Shown here piece after piece: positions 15,038-17,585 of a stretch of 64,000 bases of DNA (its first letter is position 1; each line of letters starts with the position of its first letter). Source of the DNA: Bacteroidia bacterium (GTDB lineage Bacteria; Bacteroidota; Bacteroidia; Chitinophagales; Saprospiraceae); contig JAUHXV010000007.1 in the NCBI GenBank assembly GCA_030426765.1, positions 1-64,000 on the forward strand, in the 5' to 3' direction. A model generated the notes under the pieces. It was not told the origin of the DNA. It saw only the letters and a program-made list of their open reading frames with translations, and did not search any database. The translations under genes and the position numbers were made by a program.

Positions 15038-15739
15038 ATGGAAGAAAATCCATTAGCCGATTTAATCGATCAGTATCTGCAAGGCCAAATCAGCGCCGAA
15101 GATGATCAGGTACTGAAGAAGCGCATTGCTTCCGATCCTGAGGCTGCCAAAATGATGGAAGACAGCCAGCTGGCGTACCGTGCGCTGCAGCTGCAGCGAC
15201 AAAAGCAATTAAAGGCAAAGTTGCAGGCATTAGATCGGCCTCTCCATCAGCCCTCGCGCAGGCGTCCGGTCTGGCTGATTGTGTCGTTGTGTATCCTTGG
15301 CGGGTTAAGTTTTTACTTATATATGTCTGCTATCTATTTCACGTCTGAATCTGTCGCTGCAAGGAACATTGTTTCCTATCAGACTTATTCCACGCAGACG
15401 AATAATCCTTCTGAAACAAATCTCCTTTGGAAAAATGCTGAATTGGATTTTCGCAAAGGAGAATTTCAAAATGCCCTCCTGCAGTATCAGACCATTTCAG
15501 CCGACAGTGATCCGACGACAGTTGCGCTGGCTCAGTGGAATATCCTCATGGCCGAACTCGCTCTGCGCGGCATCGACCTTCCTTGGACAGAACAATTAGA
15601 AGGATTTAAAACTTCATCGAACGTTGAAGTAGCCCAAAAAGCCGAAGCACTTAGTAAATGTCTGAACTCTGGGTACTACAGGTTTTTTTCGCGCGGTTTG
15701 TATCAGAATCTTTCCTCGATTAAGCCAAGGCTTATATGA
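15038..15739 (+). CDS. Single-pass membrane protein, probable anti-sigma-like partner
   Basis: 233 residues. The N-terminus (LADLIDQYLQGQISAEDDQVLKKRI...DPEAAKMM) resembles the short helical domain of Bacteroidota anti-sigma/FecR-like proteins that counts as a sigma-binding segment. A basic stretch (SRRRP) leads into one transmembrane helix at about residues 78-98. The periplasmic part has a TPR-like stretch (LLWKNAELDFRKGEFQNALLQYQTI), seen in other such partners. It follows the sigma factor gene directly. Its stop codon falls exactly where the G-rich octamer array begins, so the original C-terminus may have been changed by an insertion. The anti-sigma function is inferred from context. Confidence 0.6.
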   Translation: MEENPLADLIDQYLQGQISAEDDQVLKKRIASDPEAAKMMEDSQLAYRALQLQRQKQLKAKLQALDRPLHQPSRRRPVWLIVSLCILGGLSFYLYMSAIYFTSESVAARNIVSYQTYSTQTNNPSETNLLWKNAELDFRKGEFQNALLQYQTISADSDPTTVALAQWNILMAELALRGIDLPWTEQLEGFKTSSNVEVAQKAEALSKCLNSGYYRFFSRGLYQNLSSIKPRLI

Positions 15740-15845
15740 GGGGGTGATTGGGAGAGGGGGTGATTGGGTGAGGGGGTGATTGGGTGAGGGTGTGATTGGG
15801 TGAGGGTGTGATTGGGCGAGGGTGTGATTGGGCGAGGGTGTGATT
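15740..15845 (+). repeat. G-rich octamer array, left flank of the four-helix-bundle unit
   Basis: A strict 16-bp period made of paired 8-mers (GGGGTGAT then TGGGTGAG, with variants GGTGTGAT and TGGGCGAG) is repeated about 6.5 times; the TGATT core recurs at 15745, 15761, 15777, 15793, 15809, 15825 and 15841. Units are near-identical with no spacers. It begins at the stop codon of the preceding gene. Confidence 0.9.
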
Positions 15846-15892
15846 TAAGAAAATTAATATCCGGGACTAATTTTTTATGAAAGAGAGAAGAA

Positions 15893-16259
15893 ATGAAGCA
15901 AATAGAGTTCAATGATCAATTTCGAGAGAGGACAAAAATACTAGCATTGGATATCATCCGAACTGTCTCTCCAATAAAATACTCAGACGCTACTCAGTGT
16001 GATTAGAAAGCAGTTATTCAGATCAGCGACCTCAGTAGCGGCTAATTTCAGATCATCATGCAGGGCCAGATCTCAAAAGGAACTCTACGCAAAACTGTGT
16101 ATTGTCGTAGAAGAATCCGATGAAGTCCTCTTCTGGCTGGAACTGCTTGTGGATGGGAAAATGATGGACGCTGAACAACTTCAAAAAATCCAACAGGATG
16201 CCCTTGAAGTTTTAAAAGTAATGTCCTCATACAAATACAGCGTAGGCCAAACATTATGA
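15893..16259 (+). pseudogene. Four-helix-bundle protein (S23/IVS-type family), frameshifted
   Basis: An ATG at 15893 opens MKQIEFNDQFRERTKILALD and continues through IIRTVSPIKYSDATQ, but this frame stops at 16001-16006 (GAT TAG). One base over, the frame continues as VIRKQLFRSATSVAANFRSS, then CRARSQKELYAKLCIVVEES and DEVLFWLELL, to a stop at 16257-16259. The two halves join into a normal ~120-residue four-helix-bundle protein of the family first found inside 23S rRNA intervening sequences; the family motif [RS]-SGTS-x-x-AN and the EE-x-DE-x-x-[FY]WLE stretch are both present. One extra T near 15998 explains the break. It is either a recent pseudogene or a sequence error. The gene lies between inverted octamer arrays and looks like a small inserted unit. 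Confidence 0.8.
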
Positions 16260-16263
16260 ATGC

Positions 16264-16331
16264 ACATCACTCCATCATCCCATCATCCCCTAACCTCCTC
16301 ACCTCCTCACCCCATCACTCCCTCACCCCCT
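16264..16331 (-). repeat. C-rich octamer array, right flank of the four-helix-bundle unit
   Basis: About eight 8-bp units on the plus strand (CATCACTC, CATCATCC twice, CCTAACCT, CCTCACCT, CCTCACCC, CATCACTC, CCTCACCC). On the opposite strand they read GGGTGAGG, GAGTGATG and similar, that is, the same octamer theme as the left array but inverted. The array starts 5 bp after the gene's stop. Confidence 0.8.
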
Positions 16332-16424
16332 GTTAAAAATCTGTTAAACGATTTTTCGCCTGAAAACAACACAGTCCATGCTCCCGTTTATGGCTTTACG
16401 GTCTAACCAAAAACGATAACATAA

Positions 16425-17585
16425 ATGAAATCATTTCTTTCTTTTACACTTGCCGGTTTATTGGGTGGGATGATTTGTTTTGGTGCCCTCCAATGGACCC
16501 AATCGGAAGCGACGACTTCCGGACAGGAGGTTCAGCTTGTTTCAACTTCCGCAAATACTCCCGCCAGCGGGCCCGATTTTAGCCTGGCCGCAGAGGTCGG
16601 ACAGAAAGCCGTCGTGCTGATTCACGCCGCAGAAAGTGAAGAATCTGCCGCCCAGCGCTATCGCAGATCAGACCCGATGGAGCAGTTTTTCGAGCAGTTC
16701 GGACTGGGATCCGGAGGCTTTGGATGGGGATTTGGCGGCCCAATGATCCGAAAAGGCGCCGGCTCAGGGGTCATCATCTCAAAAGACGGATATATCCTGA
16801 CCAACAACCACGTGGTGGACTTTGCGGATGAGATCATGGTACAACTCAATGATGGCAAGGATTATGAGGCCACTTTGATCGGCAAAGATCCCAGCACGGA
16901 TCTTGCAGTCGTTAAGATTGATGCCAAAAACCTCCCCACGCTGCCATATGCCAATTCCGATGAGGCCAAAGTGGGCGAATGGGTGCTCGCCATTGGCAAC
17001 CCGTTTGAATACCTGACCTCCACGGTGACGGCCGGGATCATCAGCGCCAAAGGGCGGAATCTGAATATCATCCAGGGAGAAAAGGCCATCGAACAGTTTA
17101 TCCAAACCGATGCGGCCATCAATCCGGGCAACAGCGGAGGCGCCCTGGTCAATGCCAGCGGGCAATTGCTGGGGATCAACACCGCCATCGCCTCCCAGAC
17201 CGGGAGCTATGCGGGCTACTCTTTTGCCATCCCGATCAATCTCGCAAATCGTATAGCAAACGACATAATTAAAAATGGTGGCAATATTGAGCGAACATCT
17301 TTGGGCGTTGAAGTGTTTGTACTAGACAAGGAGTTTGCCGAGGAACAGGGAATCAAGGTGTCAGAGGGCTTACTCGTCAATGCCGTAGTGGAAAGAAGTT
17401 CCGCGCAATACGGAGGCATCCGGCCGAATGATGTCCTGATGGAGATCGACGGCAAGAAGCTGAAGACCTTTGAAGATCTGAAGGAAAATATTGACCTCGC
17501 GAAAGTCGGCGACTCAATAAATTTAAAAGTTTACCGAAATGGTAAATATTTAGATATACCCGTGCGTTTAAAGAAAGGACTCTGA
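16425..17585 (+). CDS. HtrA/DegP family serine protease with one PDZ domain
   Basis: 386 residues. An N-terminal hydrophobic segment (residues 1-24, FTLAGLLGGMICFGALQW) exports or anchors it in the periplasm. The trypsin-like domain carries all three catalytic residues: His in LTNNHVVDFAD (about residue 129), Asp in DPSTDLAVVKID (about 158) and Ser in NPGNSGGALVN (about 236). A glycine-rich LA-loop (SGGFGWGFGGPM) resembles DegP/DegQ. A single PDZ domain covers about 280-380 (GIRPNDVLMEIDGKKL), so it is closer to DegS/HtrA2-type length than to two-PDZ DegP. Expected role: degrading or refolding damaged envelope proteins. A strong terminator follows 40 bp downstream, so it is probably monocistronic. 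Confidence 0.93.
   Translation: MKSFLSFTLAGLLGGMICFGALQWTQSEATTSGQEVQLVSTSANTPASGPDFSLAAEVGQKAVVLIHAAESEESAAQRYRRSDPMEQFFEQFGLGSGGFGWGFGGPMIRKGAGSGVIISKDGYILTNNHVVDFADEIMVQLNDGKDYEATLIGKDPSTDLAVVKIDAKNLPTLPYANSDEAKVGEWVLAIGNPFEYLTSTVTAGIISAKGRNLNIIQGEKAIEQFIQTDAAINPGNSGGALVNASGQLLGINTAIASQTGSYAGYSFAIPINLANRIANDIIKNGGNIERTSLGVEVFVLDKEFAEEQGIKVSEGLLVNAVVERSSAQYGGIRPNDVLMEIDGKKLKTFEDLKENIDLAKVGDSINLKVYRNGKYLDIPVRLKKGL

Follow-up and report, generated by a model that had tools for sequence, protein, structure and literature searches.

S23-family genes in hairpins with copy-specific heptamer or octamer arms between bacterial protein genes

In the window, i.e., the whole 64,000-nucleotide stretch of Saprospiraceae DNA analyzed here, a gene of the S23 family of 23S rRNA intervening sequence (IVS) proteins lies between inverted arrays of short tandem repeats, and we found that an S23 gene with copy-specific inverted arms of 7- or 8-mers is a general and recurrent architecture, of which the window is one case. 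In the samples named below, the arms of the element are built from tandem 7- or 8-mers, the 5' arm being rich in G and the 3' arm in C, mostly with the G-rich strand reading inward, and more than half of the copies have matching arms that are specific to the copy. The best explanation, which we consider fairly probable, is that the window contains one decayed copy of an IVS-like element that is widespread in intergenic regions and carries its S23 gene in the loop of a hairpin.

Structure of the window locus

The 5' (G-rich) arm occupies positions 15737-15845 of the forward strand and was detected by TRF and by a repeat search as about 13 octamers on the theme TGAGGGGG/TGATTGGG, with a TRF period of 16 (2 x 8), 6.8 copies (about 13.6 octamers), and 95% matches. 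The 3' (C-rich) arm at 16265-16331 (+), recovered by the same methods and by RNA folding, contains about eight octamers that are the inverted complement of the left theme (TRF period 8, 78% matches). The remaining TRF rows of the 64-kb window had at most 2.3 copies and scores of at most 53. When the RNA of positions 15730-16335 was folded, the two arms paired with each other and left the ORF as the loop, with an energy of -201 kcal/mol, as compared with -172 (sd 6) for 20 shuffles (z -4.9). A previous sequence-only reading of this DNA had described inverted octamer arrays bracketing a four-helix-bundle gene, and this was borne out by TRF, by a complementarity of 78% over 63 nt between the mutually inverted arrays, and by the fold. 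The S23 ORF is, by complementarity and fold, enclosed by terminal inverted repeats that form a stem.

The bracketed gene, at 15893-16259 (+), had been placed in the 23S rRNA IVS family. This assignment stood, as a PF05635 (S23, 23S rRNA IVP) match of 46 bits, above the cut-off, was obtained over profile positions 31-105, confined to the frame 15999-16256. The gene is not intact, however: the frame starting at 15893 stops after 37 codons, and a frameshift is located near 15993-15999. Judging by eye from the translation, we read 15893-16000 as the putative missing N-terminus, and the copy is decayed and frameshifted, or else a sequencing or assembly error may have caused the break. The element lies between protein ORFs and not within a 23S rRNA gene, and no Rfam match was found at this locus or at the other 16 included in the scan (17 loci). 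Both neighbors in the ORF list are co-oriented with the gene (+). The upstream ORF, at 15038-15739 and labeled anti-sigma in the sequence-only reading, ends in a TGA stop that also opens the left array, and the downstream ORF, at 16425-17585 and labeled HtrA-like by the same reader, has an 86% identical match in the sister species G001.

Copy-specific arms at S23 genes across bacteria

The architecture was analyzed at 80 named loci, the best-scoring ones among 586 matches; 74 were usable, and 6 were dropped for short flanks. These come mostly from Bacteroidota, with others from Clostridia, Geobacter, Thiobacillus, Desulfosarcina, Acidobacteria, and candidate phyla, and many are from MAGs. The left flank was compared with the reverse complement of the right flank, and scores of at least 16 were taken as matching arms. 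Own arms matched in 41 of the 74 loci, as compared with 2.2% of the swapped pairs and 6 of 876 random segments from the same contigs. The within-genome test, applied in nine genomes to 44 of 73 copies, drawn from the copies listed (minus L151 and L155, which contain two copies each, and L170, whose flank was too short), gave own-arm matches in 30 of the 44 against 8 of 356 swaps. No arms were detected at the threshold in 33 of the 74 named loci and 14 of the 44 within-genome copies. The self-match of the flanks peaked at lag 7 (0.643), with values of 0.43-0.46 at other lags and a background of 0.429 at lag 7; the swap, random-segment, and lag controls ruled out arm matching by chance. Composition and period were analyzed at 105 loci, 61 of which had arms: the best internal lag was 7 in 45 and 8 in 14 of the 61, and the inward-reading arm contained more G than C in 53 (totals of 1485 G and 493 C). 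At L154 and L166, small palindromes lay within the repeats of the S23 arms, which are composite. Co-variation of the arms was not clear among 16 Chryseobacterium orthologues (own score of 11.7 vs. 10.8 for swaps). On cyanobacterial plasmids, represented by 11 of the 27 matched records, arms outscored all swaps at 7 of 11 loci. The scores of L258, L260, and L261 were low because their 3' arm starts inside the ORF, L253 had no arms, and the arrays nearest the S23 gene of L252 were direct and not inverted, with an inverted match further upstream.

The genome of the window (G000, 95% complete) contains six PF05635 copies, as found by a profile search. Five of the six had arms that matched each other better than those of any swap among the copies, and the unit differed from copy to copy; L002 was the only copy whose own arms were not the best match. 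Three of the copies are 32-37% identical to L001 at the amino acid level, and the copies inside this genome look old, as judged from their divergence. A fixed octamer as the mobility signal was ruled out, since units vary among the copies of one genome.

Protein and arm similarity were also compared among 80 loci with arms, whose pairs may include diverged orthologous sites. The overall rank correlation was not significant (Spearman 0.026, p 0.16), and the Mantel r of 0.147 was reached by none of 500 permutations (highest, 0.145). The arm type was common to 24% of 93 pairs with S23 identity of at least 60% and non-matching wider flanks, and to 0-2.3% of those below 60%. The link between protein and arms is, therefore, confined to close pairs, and the arms appear to be rewritten soon. 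Two equal-score copies in G065 were considered as a recent duplication, and this was rejected, as the loci share no BLASTN match. The sole near-identical pair seen was a tandem duplication of the S23 element at L151 (G029:C90:52030-54955), with a period of about 615 bp and 98% identity.

Dispersed arrays, gene-less junctions, and gene-plus-arms blocks

Searches of G000 with array units, own arms counted, gave 22 matches for the window unit at E ≤ 10, and 46 and 49 matches for the L005 and L001 units, both at E ≤ 0.01. A same-unit inverted partner within 900 nt was found for three of nine fetched window-unit arrays, two of the three being one locus, and for 1 of 14 arrays of the L005 unit and 1 of 14 of the L001 unit (13 effectively covered, L378 excepted); in both of these latter cases, the pair was the S23 copy's own arms. 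The dispersed arrays of this genome are, thus, mostly not solo hairpins, as same-unit partners are missing within this distance. The octamer, which the sequence-only reading had treated as tied to the gene, is not its fixed signature: other copies have other units, and the window unit occurs elsewhere, mostly without a same-unit partner. In its simplest form, the expectation that arrays occur only beside the gene failed, as arrays are scattered without it, but the contrast between unpaired dispersed arrays and paired ones at S23 genes indicates that inverted pairs sharing one unit are concentrated at genes of this family. According to the simple ORF caller used, 28 of 32 dispersed arrays lie within 150 nt of an ORF, and in 25 of these 28 the G-rich strand (AGACCTG in the L001 type, whose unit has about equal G and C) points away from the ORF, on either ORF strand, as would the ends of an insert. 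By eye, the array-bearing gaps L037-L045 also contain other recurring repeats, among them CGCCGTAGCTTCAGCGAAGGAGA and hairpins resembling CCCCGAGCTTTAGCTCGGGG, as if insertions had been layered on one another.

Period-7/8 arrays were counted in sampled stretches that are small and clustered by genome, ignoring phylogeny. With the strict setting, none was found in 630 kb from six PF05635-less relatives, 9 in 388 kb from eleven PF05635-carrying genomes, and 37 in 1044 kb around the named loci with the S23 locus masked; the looser setting gave 1 (of period 7), 15, and 70, respectively. Among the control periods, 5 gave none in the three sets, 10 gave 0, 0, and 1-2, and 11 gave 0, 0, and 3-8, depending on the setting. 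In these samples, 7/8-mer arrays are far fewer in the PF05635-less relatives.

Junctions with and without the gene were found in relatives. The sequence-only reading had pointed to a possible empty site before htrA, and in the sister species G001 this gap is indeed devoid of a PF05635 gene but is not empty, as other arrays are present; at this gap (L047), five ATGGGGC and four AATTACG units are followed by a long palindromic block. One Chryseobacterium junction was present in 60 of 60 genomes, and its states, assigned by hand, were 16 gene-spanning, 3 remnants, 8 solo hairpins, and 33 short or otherwise filled. The gene-less heptamer hairpins measure 73-102 nt. In the flank tree, gene-bearing and solo states alternate, and the unit of the gene-bearing arms differs from that of the solo hairpins of sister species. 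The two states are seen in JM1, which has the gene (496 nt), and in G113, which has a 99-nt solo hairpin of a different unit; their flanks are 94.7 and 96.7% identical. Between JM1 and L189, the S23 gene (86%) and the flanks (84-85%) showed similar divergence, so recombination from species to species or differential loss may explain much of this pattern, which is not by itself proof of transposition. At L221 (G120), the place of S23 at this junction is taken by a different short ORF that looks lipoprotein-like by eye. A Flavobacterium junction, identified from translations as fadB-fadA, was analyzed at 30 loci from 81 searched genomes (one locus masked with N); it contained two gene-bearing types, judged by the first codons, with two unit types, as well as solo hairpins from several families and near-empty gaps of 5 and 7 nt. 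In G494, an S23 element at the next junction and a same-unit hairpin at the fadB-fadA junction are 2.4 kb apart. Gene-less hairpins of the same repeat type are present in Flavobacterium G493 and G494, whereas in G000 mostly unpaired arrays were found.

The gene and its arms were also found as a block in unrelated contexts. A 416-bp block was common to plasmids of Nostoc C052, Aulosira laxa NIES-50, and Trichormus variabilis ATCC 29413, with DNA identities, for the two of three pairs listed, of 81.6% (Nostoc C052-Aulosira laxa) and 82.8% (Aulosira laxa-Trichormus variabilis). The listed DNA match was limited to these 416 bp, with the arms inside and the ends at the arms. The three S23 proteins are 78-83% identical, and the neighbor proteins of the three blocks gave no BLASTP match at E < 0.01. 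These comparisons suggest that the arms can travel together with the S23 gene. The recurrence of gene and inverted arrays, the block in unrelated contexts, and the junctions of relatives without the gene support the earlier suggestion of a minimal mobile unit. One S23 query had no match among 50,697 phage records at E 1e-5.

We considered whether intergenic inverted heptamer hairpins are a product of the host itself, made through slippage and repair templated on hairpins, with the S23 gene as a passenger that persists in the loops. The gene-less hairpins of several unit families at the same Chryseobacterium and Flavobacterium junctions, the same-unit arrays dispersed in the window's genome, and the other arrays at the window's site in G001 would all fit such an origin. 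It accounts poorly for the gene-bearing Chryseobacterium arms that differ in unit from the solo hairpins of sister species, for plasmid DNA homology that takes in the arms and ends there, and for the near absence of arrays in sampled PF05635-less relatives, and we judge it unlikely. The clean boundaries of the Chryseobacterium junction and the plasmid block could also be the work of an IS transposase that recognizes tandem short repeats, with gene and hairpins as its MITE-like passengers. In Geobacter metallireducens, paired octamer or short-repeat sites on opposite strands are described, some at a fixed distance from ISGme8 or ISGme9 (PMC2700814). Transposase ends are fixed, unlike the units here, which vary among copies of one genome, and we hold this origin to be distinctly unlikely.

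The preferred reading, an IVS-like element between genes, also agrees with its placement. At 51 of the 80 named loci, with ORFs taken from a simple ORF caller and not from annotation, the upstream and downstream neighbors were oriented relative to S23 as (same, same) in 46, (opposite, opposite) in 2, (same, opposite) in 2, and (opposite, same) in 1, and the corresponding counts for 31 loci of the own genome and relatives were 20, 2, 7, and 2. S23 was, therefore, sense to both neighbors in 66 of 70 co-oriented contexts (46/48 and 20/22); 379 of 536 background adjacent ORF pairs were co-oriented. Sense placement fits read-through transcription. The arms adjoin stop and start codons at the Chryseobacterium junction, as might be expected if the arrays were binding sites or terminators for the gene or operon and the unit were immobile, and the authors of the G. 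metallireducens work named such paired sites global regulator sites (PMC2700814). Copy-specific units, gene presence and absence, and the block in unrelated contexts all speak against an immobile regulatory unit, which we regard as very unlikely. On cyanobacterial plasmids, S23 genes were observed among CRISPR-Cas genes at L252, L256, and L259, with short tandem arrays in the spacers; S23 lay between cas6 and cas4 in Pseudanabaena and Anabaena 90, and between cas10 and a cmr3-family gene in Picosynechococcus PCC 7003. A figure legend in a CRISPR survey names '23S rRNA IVP' (PMC10910872), and these S23 copies may be insertions and not working parts.

Candidate mechanism and comparison with known systems

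The sequence-only reading had entertained a retro-mobile unit, in which S23 would act like its relative Avd with a reverse transcriptase supplied in trans. Sub-threshold bAvd matches were obtained in three of five S23 proteins (E 5.5e-5 to 7.8e-8), homology between Avd and 2GSC is described (PMC10053308), and the sense placement of S23 genes would suit such a route. RVT_1 (PF00078) had no match in G000, with its six copies, nor in G001, G003, G015, G024, G029, G035, G044, G046, and G053, which have 5-9 PF05635 copies each, and was found in 23 of 60 relatives; the assemblies are drafts, and PF00078 may miss odd reverse transcriptases. A reverse-transcription step is unlikely, the retro-mobile part of the earlier proposal did not hold up, and we give hardly any credence to a retro-mobile S23. 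The scan of S23 proteins against families gave PF05635 and, weakly, bAvd, and no transposase family.

For the IVS-like element that we favor, a mechanism can be proposed. Lacking a promoter of its own, the element would be transcribed by read-through, and its paired arms would be cut by RNase III as in rRNA IVSs, which would keep the host cost low between cistrons. Solved structures of the S23 family are 2gsc and 2rld, and a Xanthomonas structure of this family is described as a homopentamer (PMC4990558); an S23 multimer would bind its own arms. Rare spread would depend on enzymes that the element does not carry, either host replication and repair or the transposase of another element, and not on a reverse transcriptase. 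Slippage would rewrite the arms fast while pairing kept both alike, and gene loss would leave solo hairpins or single arrays. The element would, thus, work like a 23S rRNA IVS that sits in an mRNA, and its population structure is reminiscent of REPIN-RAYT pairs. None of the comparisons caught a transposition event, and we infer a processed IVS-like RNA hairpin that is rarely moved, by borrowed enzymes. A wider proposal is offered tentatively, as a possibility: that S23/PF05635 proteins drive cross-phylum selfish elements without nuclease, transposase, or reverse transcriptase, each lineage making or maintaining its own heptamer-armed hairpins and moving them into operon junctions. These would be the hidden source of the cyanobacterial, Xanthomonas, Geobacter, and Bacteroidota heptamer arrays, and rRNA IVSs would be a special case, with rRNA as the landing site. 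It would be truly unexpected for a mobile element to have arms specific to each copy and to lack its own recombinase.

The element differs from insertion sequences and MITEs in that it has no fixed terminal inverted repeats, as the arm sequence varies among the copies of one genome. REPIN-RAYT systems have a small number of protein genes, for the most part old, and every gene has a repeat type of its own on its flanks. The S23 elements resemble them in these respects and, in Flavobacterium, also in that a genome contains hairpins of the gene's repeat type that lack the gene. They differ in that no HUH/Y1 transposase was recognized among the S23 proteins scanned, in having tandem heptamers as arms and not REP palindromes, and in that the same-unit relatives in G000 are mostly unpaired arrays. 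The link with diversity-generating retroelements is Avd, a distant relative of the S23 protein according to the bAvd matches and to PMC10053308, and the difference is that no RVT_1 reverse transcriptase was found in G000.

Intergenic short tandem arrays are described for Xanthomonas (GGGAATC, with 70-75 inverted pairs), Beggiatoaceae (TAACTGA), Nostoc, and Geobacter (PMC4692102, PMC4679880, PMC2700814), and those of Xanthomonas and Geobacter also include inverted pairs, as far as these sources describe them; here, the same-unit inverted pairs are tied to an S23 gene. The term 'S23' is absent from the main text of PMC4692102 and PMC4679880, as are 'helix bundle' and 'intervening sequence' from PMC2700814. 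Of 369 genomes in the class to which G064 belongs, one contained GGGAATC x3, and inverted pairs occurred at two sites in it. The 23S rRNA IVSs of Leptospira and Coxiella have the same protein family, with the ORF in the loop of a stem formed by terminal inverted repeats. Here, the element lies between protein genes (17 loci, from outside the set of 80 named ones, gave no Rfam match), the two arms are both tandem arrays whose unit is restricted to that copy, and gene-less versions exist. The Coxiella IVS is described as an S23 ORF in a hairpin whose stem is cut by RNase III, and the S23 start codon is preceded by tandem heptamers that vary in number (PMC4990558), and these heptamers are the closest published link between protein and heptamers that we found. 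Coxiella aside, we found no paper in the open-access literature that joins S23 genes to paired heptamer arrays. Short tandem arrays, including inverted pairs, and the IVS protein in rRNA were already known, and what is new, as far as we found, is their joining, in what looks like a widespread and poorly recognized kind of intergenic mobile hairpin. Two old puzzles, the purpose of rRNA intervening-sequence proteins and the origin of intergenic heptamer repeats, are brought together, and both become testable by comparing genomes with and without the protein, and gene-bearing with gene-less alleles at flanks that are about 95-97% identical.
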